From positions 1 to 38,837 of the forward strand of contig JAGQZV010000009.1 of the NCBI GenBank assembly GCA_020435295.1: 38,837 bases of DNA. The letters are read 5' to 3'. The stretch is from Bdellovibrionales bacterium. Lineage in GTDB: Bacteria; Bdellovibrionota; FAC87; UBA2466; JACKAF01. The position numbers and the translations under genes were made by a program. Positions 14,161-38,384 of the stretch are shown here, one piece after another. Numbering within the stretch: the stretch's first letter is position 1; each line of letters starts with the position of its first letter. Below the pieces are notes generated by a model. It had not been told where the DNA came from. It did not search any database and saw only the letters and a list, made by a program, of their open reading frames with translations.

Positions 14161-15918
14161 TTAGCGATCCTTGAACCACCCAAGAACCCCCGCTTTTGAA
14201 AGTGCGGCCTGAATAGCGCGCCGGACCTCTGAGTTCGCTTCCGCCTCTTGGATATCAAATGCTTTTTGGCTACCGAGCACTCTAAAGAGCGGCTCAAATT
14301 CCACCTGAGGCTCACCTTTCGCAGGAATGGCTTCCCGCTCTGGGAAACCCGAGGGAAGCGTCGAACCGAGATAGCTGACGCTTTCCCGGGAACCCGAGCC
14401 AAGGGTCATCATCACTGGCAACAAATACGGAGGCGCGTGGATTCGAGTCCTCTCGTTTAGCCCAATGAGCGAATTAAGTGCCGCACGACCCGTGTTTCGG
14501 ATCATCCAACGACCCGCACTCGAAACAACTCCCTTTTTGTCATGATCCGCTCGATCGGGATCCACGGCATCCATCGCCAAGTACACGGTCGTTGCAAGAG
14601 GATTAGAATCGAGAATTTTTTGAACATCCATGTCTTTTTTGGAAATGAGGTACCCCATCGAAACGTTAACGTCCTCTCCCCCCATCACAAACTCCCGCAA
14701 CACATTACTCAGAAAACCATTGTCTATCGTACCCACATGCCGCAAAGACTTTGTTAACAAAAGGTCGGTAGGAGATAGGTAGCAACGTTGTTTGGCGAGT
14801 TTCTCCAAACCCACCGCGTGCAAATTAGGAACTACTCCAGGCGCCACCAGACTCATCGGGATCTCATGGTCTACACCACAGCTTTTCTCGACAACATCGA
14901 CGAGTGATGAGCACATCACGCAGAGTTGGCCTTTTTTTAACATTTCATCATAGCCACCTTTGGGAACAGGTATCGCGTTAAAGTCATATCCCATCTGGCG
15001 GTCCAGCATGCGGAGGGCCAAATCGCTTAGCTGTTTTTCCTCGTCTTCGCTGGCTTGCTTTCTACGATCCGATCGCAATACTTCAACATGGCTCGAAAAA
15101 GCGGGCGAAACATATGTTTGCAATGGTACCAGCCGGAGGCCAACGTTGATCTCAAATACCGCCGGATATACCTTCCCGTCGTGGTGAACGAACACAACTA
15201 CGCCAGAGTGCGTGGCCTGCGATCGAGGGATACTCATCGCAATGTTCAGGCCGTCTTCAAACTTGTTGTGATCAATAACCACAACGTCTCCCGCTTGGAA
15301 GCTCACGCCCCGAATTGTTACCCGTCCGTCTTCATGTTCGTATTCGTCCAAACTTTGGGAGTCTTGTCCGAGCCAACCCGTGTGCTGCCATTGGACGGAC
15401 GGATCCATCGGGGAAATGTTTAACGGCCTATCGGGTCCTGCTAACTTGTCCGCCCTCTGCCGCGTCAAAGGAGTCTGTATTTTTGAAAGGTAAAAATGAG
15501 AGCGTATAGGGTCTCCGTGTGTAGCGATTACCTTGGCCAGGGTTTCCTCTGTCTGCGCGTCAACCTCAGTCGCCTCATACACACTGAGCAGTTGATCCAT
15601 ATATTTAGGACTTAGGTTGTATCGAAGCTTATCCAACGTGGTGGCCACAGCCCCCAGCGTACTCGGCTTTGCGTGCTTCACTAGACGATCCACCATCCAG
15701 TACCGCCAATGGGATTTCATGTACTTCACGCGCCACTGATCCACCGGCGTCACGGCCCCGTAATTCTCGATTTGGGCGATCCAGCCAGCTTGACGCTCGT
15801 CAAGAACGTCCGTTGCCAAAGACTCGTCCACCAGCTTTTTCAGCTCGTCTACGCCGGCGAATACCGGGTGAGTAACGGCTAACAAGGAAAGAAAAACTAA
15901 AGAGACAAACCTACTCAT
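14161..15918 (-). CDS. Exported permuted-papain-fold (YiiX/YebB-like) hydrolase
   Basis: A signal peptide (MSRFVSLVFLSLLAVTHPVFA) precedes a helical region (about 22-150) and a domain resembling circularly permuted NlpC/P60 enzymes: GDVVVID (210-216), ATHSGVVVF with candidate catalytic H237, VFEINVGLRLVPLQTY with E256, YDFN (311-314) and LCVMCSSLV with candidate nucleophile C336. In that family Cys and His act on amide or ester bonds in peptides or lipids. A C-terminal extension of about 240 residues has no motif I know. It overlaps the upstream gene by 8 bases, so the two are coupled. The substrate is unknown; cell wall or lipid is a guess. Confidence 0.6.
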   Translation of the reverse strand: MSRFVSLVFLSLLAVTHPVFAGVDELKKLVDESLATDVLDERQAGWIAQIENYGAVTPVDQWRVKYMKSHWRYWMVDRLVKHAKPSTLGAVATTLDKLRYNLSPKYMDQLLSVYEATEVDAQTEETLAKVIATHGDPIRSHFYLSKIQTPLTRQRADKLAGPDRPLNISPMDPSVQWQHTGWLGQDSQSLDEYEHEDGRVTIRGVSFQAGDVVVIDHNKFEDGLNIAMSIPRSQATHSGVVVFVHHDGKVYPAVFEINVGLRLVPLQTYVSPAFSSHVEVLRSDRRKQASEDEEKQLSDLALRMLDRQMGYDFNAIPVPKGGYDEMLKKGQLCVMCSSLVDVVEKSCGVDHEIPMSLVAPGVVPNLHAVGLEKLAKQRCYLSPTDLLLTKSLRHVGTIDNGFLSNVLREFVMGGEDVNVSMGYLISKKDMDVQKILDSNPLATTVYLAMDAVDPDRADHDKKGVVSSAGRWMIRNTGRAALNSLIGLNERTRIHAPPYLLPVMMTLGSGSRESVSYLGSTLPSGFPEREAIPAKGEPQVEFEPLFRVLGSQKAFDIQEAEANSEVRRAIQAALSKAGVLGWFKDR

Positions 15919-17038
15919 TTGCCCGCTCCTTTTTAAACTCTTCTACAATACGCACCATTTGTTGCTCCAATCCCATTCGTAGCTCATCGCCCGGCTCCAG
16001 TTGCCATGCCCGTTTGAGTGGCTCCAACCGATCGTGCAATATGCGGTAATCGCCATCATCGAGTGTATTGAGATAGCGAATGCTGTTCGCAAACTCCTGC
16101 TGCGCGGGGACAGCAGCGCGCGCACGATCGGCGGCCGGCTGGTTCGCTTCAATTCGAGCGCGCATTTCGACTTCTGCATCACTAAAGGCAGCGTAGCTTA
16201 GTCCGGCTACCGCCAAAGTTAGGCCCGCAGCGGCCACTCCGACGCCTCGGCGCGCATGCATCCAGGCGAGCTGCCGCCGCAAACTCGGCCTATAAGCCGC
16301 TTCTAGATAAGGAAGAACACCTTGGGACGTCAAATCACAGCGGCCGTAGTCTAGGCGGTTAAAGCGATGAGCGGAAACGATACTCCAAAACGGTACCCAA
16401 GCCATCGCCCGATCGCGCCACGGCCGTGGCGCTCTCGGTTGGTCCGCCAAACTTTCCAACAAGTTTATGCCATCTTTTTCAGCAAGCGTTTGTACGAGCC
16501 CGTACACCAACCGATCCGCACGGGACATAGCCTCAAGAATGCGGTCGCTGTAGCTTGCCACTCCCGTACGCACCCCCGAGTATCTCGTGACCCAAGCACT
16601 TTGCGCCACTGCCAAACCTTCAGTTAGCTCCAGAAGCTCTCGCGCCAGATCGTGCTTGGAAATAGGCGCATCGCCGTCGGAAACAAAACGCAGGCGTTGG
16701 CGCAACCAGTAGCGCTGAACCGCAGCTTGTTCAGGAGGAACTTCCGCAAGCAGTCCCCTCTCGCGCAGCAATACTTCCAGCAGAGCCAACTTAGCTTCTG
16801 GTGATCGCAGCGATGGCGTTTGGGCCATCATTTCTACAGCGTTGTCCAACGTGAGGCTCTTGCCACGCGCATTCCAGAAGGTCTGTGCGTTGCGGTACTC
16901 GGTTCGCGCGACATCGGAAAGATGGGGGGAATCTACAATCGCAGAAAAATATTCCCCGCAGATTGAGTTCGCGCGCGCCACCGACGCGAGCAGCAGATAG
17001 ACCAAAAAGCTGCACAATGTCGAATGATAACGCCTCAA
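15911..17038 (-). CDS. Exported, probably membrane-anchored protein of unknown function
   Basis: The 375-residue product starts at TTG 17038, with AGGGA four bases upstream. It has a signal peptide (CSFLVYLLLASVARA), a helical middle and one hydrophobic segment near residues 270-287 (GVGVAAAGLTLAVAGLSYAAF) followed by a charged C terminus. This suggests a periplasmic domain, one further membrane crossing and a helical tail. It is the first gene of a pair with the permuted-papain-like enzyme and may anchor or regulate it. I do not recognise the family. Confidence 0.7.
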   Translation of the reverse strand: MRRYHSTLCSFLVYLLLASVARANSICGEYFSAIVDSPHLSDVARTEYRNAQTFWNARGKSLTLDNAVEMMAQTPSLRSPEAKLALLEVLLRERGLLAEVPPEQAAVQRYWLRQRLRFVSDGDAPISKHDLARELLELTEGLAVAQSAWVTRYSGVRTGVASYSDRILEAMSRADRLVYGLVQTLAEKDGINLLESLADQPRAPRPWRDRAMAWVPFWSIVSAHRFNRLDYGRCDLTSQGVLPYLEAAYRPSLRRQLAWMHARRGVGVAAAGLTLAVAGLSYAAFSDAEVEMRARIEANQPAADRARAAVPAQQEFANSIRYLNTLDDGDYRILHDRLEPLKRAWQLEPGDELRMGLEQQMVRIVEEFKKERANE

Positions 17039-31904: not shown

Positions 31905-32579
31905 ATGAACCACCCCCGCATACAGATCGCAGGGGTCTGCGATCTTACGGAAGCCTTGATGCTTTCTTTTTCTGGGGCCGACCACTTGGGTTTTCCTTTG
32001 GGGCCCGGCATCTCCACTGAAGAACTAAACGAAGCTGAAGCGGCAACTATTGCAAACAAACTACCCAAATGCACTACTCCAGTGCTCATCACCTATCTAC
32101 GAACGGCAGTTGAAGTACAAGCACTGGCTAATAAAGTCGGCATGGTACGCATCCAACTCCATGGAGACATCCCTCCTAGCGAGGTTGAAAAACTGAAACA
32201 GGGCGGCAGGTTCTATCTCATCAAAAGTGTTGTGATTGGGAAATTCAGCCCCGATGAGATCGTGTACAAGTACGATCCTTTTGTCGACGCGTTTATTACC
32301 GACACCTTTGACCCCGCGAGCAATCGATGCGGTGCCACGGGCATCGCACACGACTGGAACGAGAGCCGACGAGTCGTAAAAATGACAAAAAAACCCGTTA
32401 TTTTGGCGGGTGGATTGCGGGCCGACAACGTCGCCTCTGCCATCGCCGCTGTGCAACCGGCTGGCGTAGATGTACACACTGGTGTGGAGGATGAAAATGG
32501 GAGGAAGGACGAACTGCTAGTCCGGGGTTTCATCAAGAATGCGAAACAAGCATTTTCCGAGTTCTCCGCAAATGGCTAA
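31905..32579 (+). CDS. Phosphoribosylanthranilate isomerase-like (TrpF-fold) protein
   Basis: This 224-residue (beta/alpha)8 protein shows TrpF landmarks: GADHLGF (24-30), FITDTFD with D133 at the general-acid position, [20 protein letters not shown] (167-176) and a phosphate-binding VDVHTGVED. In TrpF the first strand is KICG, whose Cys is the catalytic base. Here it reads QIAGVC: Ala stands there, and a Cys comes three residues later (C12). It is in no trp operon and overlaps copA by 8 bases. It may do a related isomerisation or be non-catalytic. The ATG 31905 is preferred; the frame runs open upstream across another gene. Confidence 0.65.
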
Positions 32580-34641
32580 ATACACTTGTCCCATGCATCC
32601 AGAGGTGATTACCGACCGGCAGGGCAGCTGCCCGAAATGTGGGATGGCACTGGAGCCCGTTGAGGTAAGTACAAAGGCAGGGCCAAATGAAGAATACCTT
32701 TCCTTCCTACGACGGTTTTGGGTTTCGCTCCCCATCACCATAGCATTGATGGTACTGGCGATGCGCCACATGGGAAGTGCCGACACATCCAGCTGGTGGA
32801 TCCAGTGGGTACTAAGCACACCTATCGTATTTTGGGCGGGCTTCCCTTTTATTGAACGCGCATACCATTCCTTACACCATCTTCGCCCGAACATGTTTAC
32901 GCTCATCAGTTTGGGAGTGTTAACGGCGTACTTCTACAGTGCGTGGGTAACTGTGTTCCCGCGATCTGTTGAAGGCGCAGCGGTGTATTTTGAAGCGGCC
33001 GCAATGATCACGGTTCTGTCTCTAATTGGACAACTCCTCGAACTAAGGGCGCGGGAGAAAACCTCTGACTCGCTCAAGCAGCTTCTGAAGCTGGCACCGG
33101 AGACAGCGCACATCCTTCGCGACGGCCAGTACAAGGACGTGCACATCTGCCAGGTGAAAGTAAACGATCTCGTGAAGGTACGGCCCGGTGAGAAAGTCCC
33201 TGTCGATGGCGTAGTTCAAGAGGGCAGCAGTTCAGTTGATGAATCCATGTTAACAGGCGAACCTCTCCCGATTAACAAGAGCCTCGGCGACGCTGTGACC
33301 GCGGGAACGTTGAACCAGCAAGGGGTTTTGATCTTCAAGGCCACTCGTGTTGGAAAGGACACCACTCTTTCAAAGATTGTTAAGCTCGTTGGGGAGGCAC
33401 AGCGCAGCCGCGCTCCAATTCAGCGGATTGCCGATCAGGTTTCCGAATACTTTGTACCAGCGGTTGTTGGGATTGCAATTTTGACCTTCGTCATTTGGTA
33501 CGCTGTTGGACCGGAGCCTCATCTATCACACGCCCTGGTAAATGCAGTGGCAGTACTCATAGTGGCTTGCCCGTGCGCACTTGGGCTCGCCACGCCTATG
33601 TCTGTCATGGTCGCTACGGGCAAGGGTGCTGCGAACGGAATTCTATTCAAAAATGCTGAAAGCCTCGAAGGCCTAGCCAAAACCACGGTACTAATCGTTG
33701 ACAAGACAGGCACGCTTACCGAGGGCAACCCGTCTGTACACAACATAGAGTGCGTCGCAAATTACGATGAGAGCTCTGTTTTGCGCCTGGCTGCTTCACT
33801 GGAGCAACAAAGTGCGCACCCAATCTCGAAAGCCATCGTCAAAGAAGCGATCGATCGCGGGCTAGAGCTGCAAGCTTGTGAAAAGTTCCAGTCGGAAACC
33901 GGCAAGGGCATCTCCGGCATAGTGAATGGCGAGAGCATTTTCGTTGGCAGTGAAACGTCGATCCAAGAACATGGGTCAGAGCTTCCCGCGGCAGAGAAGT
34001 TTGGAGACTCAGGTCCTGGTACTAGTCATGTCTATGTGGCCGTGAACAATCAGGTGGTTGCTCGCCTAAGTATCCGCGATTCACTTAGACCGAGTTCCAA
34101 GCAGGCAGTGGAAGAGTTTAGGAAGAGAGGGCTGAGAGTCATTATGGCAAGCGGAGATCGCCGCGAATCAGCCGAAGCTATTGCGAAAGAAGTTGGCATT
34201 GCGGAGATCTACGCCCCTCTACTGCCCGAGGAAAAAAGCGCCCTAGTCAAAAAACTAAAGGAGGCTGGAGAAACTGTGGCCATGGCAGGAGACGGCATCA
34301 ACGATGCGCCGGCTTTAAGTATTGCCCAAGTCGGAATCGCCATGGGTGCGGGCTCCTCCATAGCGCTTGAAAGTGCGGGAGTTGCACTGATGCGAAATGA
34401 CCTCTTCCATCTCGCCCAGGCCTATGTGCTTAGTCAGAAAACCCTAGGCAATATTCGACAAAACTTGTTTTTCGCTTTTTTCTACAACTCACTAGGCGTG
34501 CCGATCGCTTCTGGCATCCTCTACCCTGCCTTTGGATTACTTCTGAGCCCAGTATTTGCAAGCGTAGCAATGAGCCTCAGCTCAGTCTCTGTAATTGGAA
34601 ATGCTCTGCGGATACGATCGATCAGGCTGCCTGTGGCCTGA
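32572..34641 (+). CDS. copA: Copper-type P1B-ATPase
   Basis: The start at 32572 overlaps the TrpF-like stop. The 689-residue P-type ATPase begins with a short heavy-metal motif, YTCPMHPEV...CPKCGM (C6, C20, C23), instead of a full HMA domain. Then come the A domain TGEP, the transmembrane metal motif CPC (C333-P-C335), the phosphorylation motif DKTGTLT (D377), and GDGIND. A terminal [14 protein letters not shown] helix is typical of CopA/CopB pumps, which move Cu(I) or Ag(I) outward. The CPC motif favours Cu(I). It probably shares the sigma-54 transcript from 31480. The 3' end overlaps the PP2C gene by 20 bases. Confidence 0.92.
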
Positions 34642-35458
34642 AAAGGATAAAAGTGCAATCGTCAGGTTTAGACGGGTGAGTTCCCGTTTCGGCGATCATC
34701 CGCTGATGCACATCGGAAGATAGTTGGTTCATAACATTCTCGAGGTTGCCCTTGCGGGCACGCTCTATTATTTCCTCGGTCAAGAAATTGTCGGAAAGCC
34801 CATCCGTTGCAAGAAGCAACGTGTCTCTCTGTCCGAGTTTCAGGCTGGGTCCAATTTCAATACGCATCTCCTGCGATCCAAGCATGTTGGATATCAAGTT
34901 GGAGTCTGGATCGGACAGAGCTTCACGTTCGTCCATCGCTCCCCCCTCAACCAAATAACCAACAGGAGAATGAGGTACAGTTTGCCACTTCGTTTTGCCT
35001 TTGAGCCCGAAAAGAAGAATCAGCGAATCACCAACATGGTACGGACGGATTTGATCTTGGCTGACCTCCGCAATGGAAATCGTCGTGGCCGAGCCTTGGC
35101 CCAAGCTGAGGATTCGGGTATTCGCCTCCTCTATTCCATTCAGGATGGCATCTCGCACCTGCAGACCGCTCTTTTGCCCCTTGTCGAGTGCCTCATCAAG
35201 CGCTTGCATCGCCACTTCAGACGCCTGTGATCCCTTGGGAAGTCCGCCTACCCCGTCTGCTACCGCTAAAACTACCGTACCATCGCCATACGAAAACAAC
35301 CCTGCGGCGTCTTCGTTCTGGTGCTTCGGACTTTTCTCAGGGGATCGCGTAGAGTAAACGGCTATCTGGCCAAAAGGGAGCTGGATGACCTCACCTACAT
35401 GCATCTCGTCATCAAGGTAGACTTTCTTGACGAGGTCTTTTGTTTTCCAGAATAGCAT
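34622..35458 (-). CDS. PP2C-type Ser/Thr protein phosphatase
   Basis: The 278-residue protein has the metal-binding PP2C motifs [23 protein letters not shown] and PDDCTFI. It would remove phosphate from Ser/Thr residues with two Mn/Mg ions. No membrane segment. A 30-residue N-terminal extension precedes the core. The gene follows the kinase by 9 bases, so it is the natural antagonist of that kinase. It converges on copA, overlapping by 20 bases. Confidence 0.92.
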
Positions 35459-35467
35459 GAGCCTGTG

Positions 35468-36421
35468 CTACCAAACCATCGTTTCCAAATATCGTCGGAG
35501 ATGCCCGGCCGTTGGAAATTTCTTCCAAATTAGCCCAATCTTCAGACCACAAATGATCTCTTTCACCTGAGGCGGAACTTTTGAGTACGCACGCTTTCCG
35601 CCCAAAGTCTCATGAAACACCCGGATCATCGCCACCACATCGTCACGAATATTCTCGGGGCGAGGGGCTGCCCAGTGGAAAAAATCCAAAATCTTCAGAT
35701 CGAAACCCAAGCCTTGGCGCCTAATAATAACGTTCTCCGAATGCAAATCTCCATGGTACTCACGCGCCTGATGTATCTGCTCCATCCCTCGCGCCAGAGC
35801 ATGTAGCAGGTGCAGCGCCTGAAAATAGTGCATGCGCTGGCCCTTTTGCCGCTTTAGGAAACTGGCAAGCAGCTCACCTTCTACATATTCTGATATAAGT
35901 GCCGTCACGAGAGAGCCGTAATGATAAAAACTCTCCATCGTGTGGTACTGAATCAGAACCGGGCACTCGCGCAGCTTATGGAGTTTTTTTGCGTAAAACT
36001 TTAGAACCTTGTTGCGCGGATTGCGATGGGGGAAAAATATCTTTGCCGCACGCAGAATACCAGTCTCTATCTCCCGGATCAGGTAGACTTCGGCTTCCCA
36101 CCCGGCCCCCAACTGTGAGATCACTTCATATTTTCTGGAGAAGCGGCGTCCAGGAGGAAAATTAAAAGCTTCTATTTTTCGTGGTTTGGTTTTTTTCTTT
36201 TTCTTTTTTTTCTTCTTTTTTTTCCTGGCGGGCTTACGGCGTTTCAGTTTCTTCTTCTTCTTGACTCTCTTCTTTTTCAGTCGTTTCTTTTTCTTAGGCT
36301 TTTTCCTTTTCACACGGGCGCGGCCGCGGACGCGTCGCACTCTGACTTTCTTGCGCTTCTTCTTGCGCCGTTTCTTCTTCCGCACGTTTTTTTTGCGGGG
36401 CTTCTTCTTCAGTCTAGCCAT
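35468..36421 (-). CDS. Ser/Thr kinase-like protein with an 80-residue poly-Lys/Arg tail
   Basis: Residues 1-80 hold about 60 Lys/Arg and no acidic residue, including an 11-Lys run at 67-77. A protein-kinase-like domain follows: glycine-rich loop LGAGWEAEV (104-112), ATP-binding K127 in RAAKIFF, catalytic loop HGDLHSEN (223-230, D225, N230) and DFF (246-248) in place of DFG. The tail resembles histone H1-like or nucleoid proteins and could bind DNA, RNA or polyphosphate. The homopolymer runs (A7-A8 on the coding strand) could slip. The start has no good SD and sits 4 bases from a palindrome, GTTTACGTAAAC. Operon with PP2C and the gene upstream. Confidence 0.8.
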   Translation of the reverse strand: MARLKKKPRKKNVRKKKRRKKKRKKVRVRRVRGRARVKRKKPKKKKRLKKKRVKKKKKLKRRKPARKKKKKKKKKKKTKPRKIEAFNFPPGRRFSRKYEVISQLGAGWEAEVYLIREIETGILRAAKIFFPHRNPRNKVLKFYAKKLHKLRECPVLIQYHTMESFYHYGSLVTALISEYVEGELLASFLKRQKGQRMHYFQALHLLHALARGMEQIHQAREYHGDLHSENVIIRRQGLGFDLKILDFFHWAAPRPENIRDDVVAMIRVFHETLGGKRAYSKVPPQVKEIICGLKIGLIWKKFPTAGHLRRYLETMVW

Positions 36422-36425
36422 AGTT

Positions 36426-36437
36426 GTTTACGTAAAC
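36426..36437. promoter_or_regulatory. Palindrome GTTTACGTAAAC just before the kinase start
   Basis: A perfect 12-base palindrome lies 4 bases upstream of the kinase ATG, in the 26-base gap after the previous gene. It could be an operator site or chance. It overlaps where an SD would normally be. Confidence 0.3.
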
Positions 36438-36447
36438 CCATTGGAAG

Positions 36448-36888
36448 TTAGTCCAGAACGTCGAAGTTCTCAACCACGAGTAAGTTTCCCCAAAAGAGGA
36501 ACTTGGGGGTTTTCTTTCCCGTTACCCGTACAGCGAGTTTCCCTGCTGCTCCGGTCACGCGGCTAAGGAGCAATGCGTTATCTACTACGGAAAATTCCTC
36601 TCCATCTTCACGCGTAAAAACAAGCGTACAAGACTGCGCACCTGGCTCCTCACAGCTAACGGTCCCCCTCCATTGGATCATCGGGAGCGAGGGGGGCGGA
36701 CTTAAGAGGTAGCGTGGGTGCCGATCATAGCTAGGCGCAAAGCCCACCACGGGCAGCAAGAGGGCGAGAAACACCGCCCACCAAGCAGCCCGAGCCGAAA
36801 TTGATGCCTTGCGGCACCCTTCAATAATTGAACGCCAAAACGACCCCACCCCTCTATTGTAGGGTCGCAAGTGGTAGCAAAAATACAC
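36448..36888 (-). CDS. Membrane-anchored protein upstream of the kinase, unknown
   Basis: The 146-residue frame has one hydrophobic segment (WAVFLALLLPVVGFA, about 37-51), preceded by a basic region, and then about 95 residues with a Cys pair (C79, C86), probably a beta-rich periplasmic domain. GTG 36888 starts the longest form; GTG 36849 gives a shorter one. Neither has a well-placed SD. It is followed after 26 bases by the kinase and is probably in its operon. The family is not known to me. Confidence 0.6.
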   Translation of the reverse strand: MYFCYHLRPYNRGVGSFWRSIIEGCRKASISARAAWWAVFLALLLPVVGFAPSYDRHPRYLLSPPPSLPMIQWRGTVSCEEPGAQSCTLVFTREDGEEFSVVDNALLLSRVTGAAGKLAVRVTGKKTPKFLFWGNLLVVENFDVLD

Positions 36889-37066: not shown

Positions 37067-37255
37067 ATGAAGGGCTCCGGCTCTACATTAAATATCAAAG
37101 CGATCATCTTTCTCTGGGCGGTCTTGTTCATCGTAATGATCCTCATGTTGTCCTGCGCACGGGCGGACCACAGGCATGCCGTACGGAGATCCCAGAAAGC
37201 CCCGGCTTTGGTAAAGTGTGTACATGCCCCACACCTACCGCTTGCTACTTCTTAG
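37067..37255 (+). CDS. Small membrane protein or lipoprotein
   Basis: ATG 37067 has GAGGG seven bases upstream. The 62-residue product has one hydrophobic stretch (AIIFLWAVLFIVMILMLS) followed by a Cys and a basic, His/Arg-rich tail. This could be a signal peptide with a weak lipobox or a membrane anchor. It overlaps the following gene by about 30 bases. The tail has no recognised motif. Confidence 0.45.
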   Translation: MKGSGSTLNIKAIIFLWAVLFIVMILMLSCARADHRHAVRRSQKAPALVKCVHAPHLPLATS

Positions 37256-38384
37256 TTTGTTCCTAGGGACTTCTTCACTTGCCACTCCGCATAAGGCATG
37301 CGCCGATAAAGAGGCGGATATCCGAATCATTGTCTCCACCAATGTAGACGGCCCAGAGTCAGTAAAACAACTGCACGCATTAGTATCCTCCACAACACCA
37401 CTGCCCATTCACGCTAGGAATTCTGGGCCATCGGTGAACTTAGTTTTGAACAAGATCCACTCCGGGGATTGTGTTCAATACGAGCCACAAGAAGCCGCAG
37501 AGTTCTCGTTACAGTTCTCGGAAGAAGGCAACTTGTTCAAAAGCCTAGGAAAAATCTTCGGGGTAGGGAACTCTATCCAGAAGCCAAAACTCGTACCTGT
37601 TGTGTATTGGAAAAAACAAGATGAGTCGCGCCACTTCGGCCTCATGGATCTCAAAAACCTCGAAACACTCCACGATGTCACGACACGGGAAACCCCCATT
37701 AAGGAACTCCTCGCCTACCCGACGGACAAGAGATTTACCGTGCTCTACGTTCTGTGCCCTAAGGACCGCAAGGCGGTTTGTCACCTTGAGATCCGCCACA
37801 AAGGAAAATGGGTTAACGATCCAAAAAGTGGCAAGCGCCTACGCTACCCCGTTCTCGGACGTTCCAATCGCAACGGCGACTTGAGCCAGCGGATCCTTTT
37901 TGGCGGCGACACTCCGCAAGGCATCTATTACCTATGGGGCACGATGTTCACGGCAGATCCCGTTTTTGGAAATGAACCCCGAATCGATTTGGACGCGAAC
38001 ATGCCGCCAGTCAATTCTTACGTCTACGAACTTAACTCGCCAGTCCTCGATGGACTTGTCCCGGAATCCGCAAGAAAAGATTATTGGATACATGAATGGC
38101 CATTGGCGTATAAGTTGGGACGATCTTATCTGCGGATCCACACCAACCCCGAAATAATGGGGAAAAAGTCGGCTGCGGTGGCTCAAGAAGACAGCCTATT
38201 TAACCCAACTCAAGGTTGCCTTAACGCCGGCCCGTCCATGAAGGGCCTGCTCGAAACGCTAGTTCGTCTCGGGATAGTCAGAAAAGACCAAATTCACACT
38301 CCCGAGCCCGCAACCTCTCCTACCCTAGGCTGGAAAGTCATCCCGAAAATCGGAAATGTCTTTCTTATTGTGCGCGATTACTAA
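37224..38384 (+). CDS. L,D-transpeptidase-like exported protein
   Basis: The product starts at ATG 37224 (GTG 37218 is possible) with a signal peptide (LLLLSLFLGTSSLATP). Its C-terminal part resembles the YkuD/L,D-transpeptidase fold: GDTPQGIYYLWG, RIHTNPEI with candidate H306, and PTQGCLNAG with candidate nucleophile C332. In classic enzymes this is HG...SHGCxR, so S, H and R are replaced. A roughly 170-residue N-terminal region is unassigned. It may cross-link or modify peptidoglycan, or be a divergent relative. No SD; it overlaps the preceding small gene. Confidence 0.6.
   Translation: MPHTYRLLLLSLFLGTSSLATPHKACADKEADIRIIVSTNVDGPESVKQLHALVSSTTPLPIHARNSGPSVNLVLNKIHSGDCVQYEPQEAAEFSLQFSEEGNLFKSLGKIFGVGNSIQKPKLVPVVYWKKQDESRHFGLMDLKNLETLHDVTTRETPIKELLAYPTDKRFTVLYVLCPKDRKAVCHLEIRHKGKWVNDPKSGKRLRYPVLGRSNRNGDLSQRILFGGDTPQGIYYLWGTMFTADPVFGNEPRIDLDANMPPVNSYVYELNSPVLDGLVPESARKDYWIHEWPLAYKLGRSYLRIHTNPEIMGKKSAAVAQEDSLFNPTQGCLNAGPSMKGLLETLVRLGIVRKDQIHTPEPATSPTLGWKVIPKIGNVFLIVRDY

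Follow-up and report, generated by a model that had tools for sequence, protein, structure and literature searches.

Among bacterial kinases, the closest described precedent for control through a basic, disordered segment is YabT of Bacillus subtilis, a Hanks kinase whose Lys/Arg-rich region binds DNA and activates the enzyme, and is absent from its paralogues and from most of its orthologues (PMC3708118). The region binds single-stranded and double-stranded DNA with no sequence preference and stays disordered until DNA is bound, and the kinase phosphorylates RecA and SsbA (PMC3708118, PMC6333020). A lysine-rich disordered N-terminus also mediates the binding of polyphosphate by Escherichia coli YihI (PMC12345225).

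The window, by which we mean the whole analysed stretch of 38,837 nucleotides from a Bdellovibrionales bacterium, encodes a kinase that resembles each of these systems in part. The gene occupies 35468..36421 on the minus strand, stop codon included, and its open reading frame specifies 317 amino acids with a Pfam Pkinase match of 51.6 bits. Like YabT, the protein combines a PknB-like fold and a degenerate DFG motif (DVG in YabT) with the lack of an extracellular sensor and with a Lys/Arg-rich region that is missing from most relatives and lies outside the conserved core, here at residues 1-80. The basic region of YabT, however, lies on the C-terminal side of the kinase, beside a membrane helix, whereas here it is N-terminal, far purer and not accompanied by a helix; YabT also keeps the alphaC glutamate (Glu66) and the glycine of DFG, both of which are gone here. 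A PP2C gene adjoins the kinase of the window, unlike that of YabT, and the DNA binding known for YabT is here a candidate property. The PASTA kinases PknB and Stk1 with their Stp-type PP2C phosphatases provide the closest solved fold and a similar kinase-PP2C gene pair, but differ by their membrane helix and PASTA domains, by a sequence identity of 19% and by an activation segment of about 40 residues rather than 15. The HGDLHxxN catalytic loop and the short activation segment recall the small kinases of the Kdo/WaaP, Bud32, ABC1 and APH groups. Pfam and NCBIfam models of Kdo, ABC1, APH and Bud32 match the window protein weakly, all below their curated cut-offs, and in contrast to these groups its family has Pkinase as the best match by number in 96 of 96 members and a fold nearest to PknB. 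With YihI the protein shares a lysine-rich N-terminal region without a fold; YihI itself is not a kinase, and its region also contains acidic and serine residues and prefers Lys over Arg.

The polybasic tail (residues 1-80, 36182..36421, minus strand) contains 60 Lys or Arg and no Asp or Glu. The translation thus agrees with the count given in the initial annotation, whose coordinates were exact and which had named no strand. The calculated charge of residues 1-82 is about +61 at pH 7; the background of Lys and Arg across the window is 11%, and the richest 80-residue stretch among the 18 other genes of the window holds 17 of them. Composition suggests that the tail is presumably disordered. 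Its codon usage is mixed, with Lys encoded by 23 AAG and 20 AAA and Arg by all six codons, and the two other forward frames of the same DNA contain 4 and 3 stops together with 5 and 26 acidic residues. When the tail DNA was shuffled 5000 times with dinucleotides preserved, Lys or Arg numbered 34.7 on average and 49 at most; every shuffle had acidic residues, and none of the 5000 reached the composition of the real tail. Therefore, the tail is kept at the protein level, and its charge appears to have been retained while the codons drifted. Simple triplet expansion as the sole origin is ruled out by the nearly equal use of AAG and AAA, the six Arg codons and the failure of the shuffles to reach the observed composition. 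On the plus strand, no frame is open across 35468-36421, and a Phe-rich ORF at 36186-36566 represents the antisense shadow of the tail.

In-frame ATG, GTG or TTG codons are found at positions 1, 13, 28 and 37 of the gene, and the next one, codon 100, falls within the first kinase strand, so that the core cannot be made whole without 40 or more residues of the tail. A miscalled start, with translation beginning downstream of the tail as the initial annotation had considered, is ruled out by the lack of start codons between codons 37 and 100. Upstream of the kinase ATG, a strong Shine-Dalgarno sequence is not apparent.

Residues 81-317 (35471..36181, minus strand, as are all elements of the gene) constitute the kinase core, as delimited by the family alignment. 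Modelled alone by AlphaFold2, the core gives a confident structure (pLDDT 93.5), and the nearest solved fold is that of Mycobacterium tuberculosis PknB (Z 22.9, rmsd 2.5 over 222 residues). The compact kinase domain described earlier is confirmed by its Pkinase score, well above the cut-off of 31.7 bits. The Hanks-type catalytic set is present as K127, D225, N230 and D246, all invariant in the family. Across 82 relatives, G105, G107, E109 and V112 of the glycine-rich loop LGAGWEAEVY (residues 104-113, 36083..36112) are invariant, as are the beta3 lysine K127 (36041..36043; 82/82) and H223, D225, H227 and N230 of the catalytic loop HGDLHSEN (residues 223-230, 35732..35755). The canonical partner of the beta3 lysine, the alphaC glutamate, is missing: K146 (35984..35986) is placed by profile alignment opposite the alphaC glutamate of Staphylococcus aureus Stk1, and this position is Lys in 80 of the 82 relatives. 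DFF stands in place of DFG at residues 246-248 (35678..35686), as the initial annotation had it. The equivalent motif, read automatically and readable in 112 of 126 members, is D-[MLFV]-[FYHL] in all 112, mostly D-[MLF]-[FYH], with an invariant Asp. The DFF motif and the tail had been taken for one combination; since no readable member keeps the glycine, the two are unlinked. The invariant D261 (35639..35641), identified as the alphaF aspartate by comparison with Stk1, follows D246 after 15 residues, against 40 in Stk1, and an activation segment of this length would leave little room for a loop with an APE motif.

No transmembrane segment was detected in the 317 residues (the best 19-residue hydropathy, 1.25, lies inside the kinase domain), nor was a PASTA domain, the PASTA-kinase model NF033483 scoring 32.9 bits against a cut-off of 450; the earlier distinction from PASTA-type kinases holds. 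By these features the core is a soluble, atypical Hanks-fold kinase. Its invariant catalytic residues, its missing canonical features and its PknB-like predicted fold together make catalysis plausible though atypical. Identity with the MADS antiphage kinase MAD6 is ruled out (NCBIfam NF047741, 57.7 bits against a cut-off of 460), as is a defence-system kinase at large, the scores being generic to the kinase domain only. The same genome encodes at least six other Pkinase-domain genes above the cut-off, including G000:C259:4255-5013 and G000:C31:7558-8340, and most of these are closer to the Pfam model than the tailed kinase.

The core family is present in 59 of the 368 genomes sampled from Bdellovibrionota, the phylum of the window (about 16%), in 45 of 369 genomes of a class sample centred on a gammaproteobacterium (L035) and in 12 of 147 genomes of a phylum sample centred on a Stahlbacteria/WOR-3 MAG (L020). 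It also occurs in MAGs labelled as Gemmatimonadales, Polyangiaceae, Dadabacteria, Woesearchaeota and Nanoarchaeia, labels that may be wrong for single contigs. Within the phylum, the kinases of genomes G197 and G127 are identical to those in Bacteriovoracaceae and Halobacteriovorax records. Identity between the relatives and the window core ranges from 42 to 63%, and the collections searched contain no relative above 63% and none from the same family of organisms. We found no paper on an HGDLH kinase, and as far as the searches reached the family is apparently undescribed. A phage or plasmid origin is ruled out: viral contigs contain no relative, and plasmids give only generic kinases at 29-30% identity. 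The genes labelled Woesearchaeota (L028:5998-6711, on a 504 kb contig) and Nanoarchaeia (L031:6001-6714) cluster in the tree with a support of 98, and neither adjoins a PP2C gene; inter-domain transfer and mis-binned contigs are both possible sources of these members from DPANN archaea.

A PP2C phosphatase of 278 amino acids is encoded 9 bp past the kinase stop codon (34622..35458, minus strand). It matches Pfam PP2C_2 with an E value of 1.6e-15 and 57.7 bits against a cut-off of 24, and contains the metal-binding Asp motifs NED, ADGVGG, SDN and DDCT; its best NCBIfam match, the Stp1/IreP model, stays below the cut-off (107 against 230). Among the 120 family loci with enough flanking sequence to test the adjacency, a PP2C gene adjoins the kinase in 85, in 83 of them downstream and on the same strand, and is missing from the WOR-3 members and some others. 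No third conserved gene was found near the family loci. Of all the features, this pairing points most strongly, though indirectly, to protein as the presumed substrate, with Ser or Thr as the putative acceptor residues. On the other side, an ORF of 146 amino acids with one hydrophobic stretch and no family match (36448..36888, minus strand) ends 26 bp ahead of the kinase. It has no counterpart beside the kinase relatives and is perhaps part of the kinase operon, outside the conserved module. An FHA-domain protein encoded near the kinase at L038:4390-4830 belongs to a group of related genes near the kinase in four gammaproteobacterial loci (three Ectothiorhodospiraceae MAGs and L030); as a phosphothreonine reader it is a possible partner of the kinase.

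The tail is far less widespread than the core. None of the relatives found possesses one of comparable length, and a search with the tail alone returned no match in 58 relatives. The longest other tail belongs to L005 (genome G022), with the sequence VKKKPRKKAGLRRKKKRKIKKIKRPEPS, in which 17 of 28 residues are Lys or Arg and no later start codon precedes the core. The sister of L005, L004 (G036), shares its locus and its neighbours yet has no tail, and in the tree L005 and the window protein are not grouped together; the two tails thus probably arose separately. The gene is carried only by G022 and G036 among the five genomes of G022's family, which adds no further tailed relatives. L005 (1495-2295) has gained its basic leader and lacks the adjacent PP2C gene, and L004 (704-2226) has the PP2C gene and no tail. 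Lys-rich tails of the kind to be sought in this lineage according to the initial annotation are therefore not a family property, and absence from close relatives, named there as refuting its proposal, is what was seen: as far as could be checked with a nearest relative at 63% identity, the long tail is confined to one protein, alongside the single 28-residue version.

The leaders of the family are nonetheless basic. The 99 ATG leaders of relatives contain 36.5% Lys or Arg and 2.5% Asp or Glu, compared with 13.4% and 11.4% in residues 2-6 of the adjacent PP2C proteins and 17.6% and 7.4% in other ORFs, with start choices made mechanically in this comparison. The median core charge of the family is +10. 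In composition, the window tail is an exaggeration of the basic tendency seen in family leaders. A genome-wide habit of Lys-rich tails is ruled out: the genome has no second tract of eight ARR codons, and a looser scan for Lys-rich tracts returned other tracts, fewer on the pattern than on the reversed control.

With a tail charge of +60, a soluble kinase will encounter cellular polyanions, and because a purely basic tract would bind any of them, the ligand cannot be read from the sequence. We tentatively favour, at somewhat under an even chance, a soluble kinase acting in opposition to the adjacent PP2C phosphatase, with its presumably disordered 80-residue polycation bound to a polyanion, most likely DNA or RNA/ribosomes. 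Nucleic acid of either kind is the leading candidate for the ligand, and this choice too falls a little short of an even call. Binding through the tail would concentrate the kinase near substrates on a polyanionic surface, and may raise its activity in the manner of the Lys/Arg-rich region of YabT. With hardly any activation segment in the core, switching through activation-loop phosphorylation is unlikely, and control would consequently be exerted by tail-directed localisation and by PP2C. We infer in this way the catalytic activity, the protein substrate, the nucleic-acid ligand and the localisation or activation driven by the tail. Weighing against the nucleic-acid reading are the restriction of the tail to one protein, the origin of the genome as a MAG, the absence of a closer relative that would show selection on the tail, and the different, C-terminal and juxtamembrane, placement of the basic region in YabT. 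The proposal in the initial annotation of a tether to a polyanion rather than to the membrane survives in part: the purely basic tail is real, YabT offers a precedent and the leaders and cores of the family are basic, but the tether is not family-wide and acidic lipids are compatible with it.

The tail may have grown by slippage, and imperfect repeats of 12-15 bp persist within its DNA. Taken further, this would make it a short basic leader that slippage of Lys and Arg codons has expanded, in this lineage only, into a tolerated low-complexity tract, with no dedicated role other than keeping the kinase soluble or slowing its translation. The absence of the tail from all relatives and the separate appearance of a smaller one in G022, whose sister G036 has none, fit such an origin, as does the known slowing of translation on cationic peptides (PMC9207662). 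We nevertheless consider this account unlikely, since the tail extends over 80 codons with neither an acidic residue nor a stop despite its well-mixed codons, against about 11 acidic residues and 2 stops in an average shuffle, and since basic leaders are a trend of the whole family.

Polybasic stretches in other proteins bind acidic membranes. The tail might accordingly hold the kinase at the inner face of the membrane through acidic phospholipids, with charge taking the place of a membrane helix, and membrane kinases such as PknB are its closest relatives in fold. The tail, however, offers no hydrophobic anchor residues and the protein no membrane helix, which renders this placement improbable. 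Polyphosphate is a similarly doubtful ligand. A kinase reporting on polyphosphate granules, or residing at them, would be in keeping with the PPK1-type polyphosphate kinase encoded in the genome and with the example of YihI, whose report also cites polylysine binding (PMC12345225). The ppk match, though, lies on another contig and, with no conserved third gene near the family, shows no genetic link to the kinase; about one third of the basic residues in the tail are Arg, and Lys-to-Arg changes abolished the polyphosphate shift of YihI (PMC12345225). A false join of a basic coding stretch to the kinase is very improbable: the window is a whole MAG contig, the estimated contamination is 4.16% and a purine-rich run of about 34 bp adjoins the core, but a single frame with mixed codons is open through 240 bp, a stop codon sits two codons ahead of the ATG, no free-standing tail-like protein was found in the genome or in 58 relatives, and the downstream PP2C fits the family.

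If the reading of a kinase localised on nucleic acid is true, the protein would join YabT as a second type of kinase in bacteria that is directed by a disordered basic segment, this time without the activation loop through which such enzymes are usually switched. The family to which it belongs is widely distributed, in many cases comes with a phosphatase of its own and, within the reach of our searches, is undescribed. A broader version, which we regard as speculative and unlikely to hold in full, would see an undescribed kinase-PP2C family spread over many bacterial phyla, perhaps with archaea, that works on polyanionic surfaces such as the nucleoid or ribosome through its basic leaders and owes its regulation to localisation instead of an activation loop; the window protein would be its extreme form, with the 80-residue polycation as the sensor. 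Because G022 and G036 offer natural forms of one locus with and without a tail, what a basic tail does can be tested directly.

The remaining parts of the window show several further features. A P-type ATPase for metal transport, bearing an HMBD domain at its N-terminus (32539-34641, plus strand), overlaps by 20 bp at its 3' end with the 3' end of the convergent PP2C gene. Two adjoining long ORFs of 585 and 375 amino acids with apparent signal peptides lie at 14161-17038 on the minus strand. Divergent from the kinase operon, a protein of 388 amino acids without a Pfam match is encoded at 37218-38384 on the plus strand, and its NPTQGCLN stretch, judged by eye only, recalls the active site of L,D-transpeptidases.
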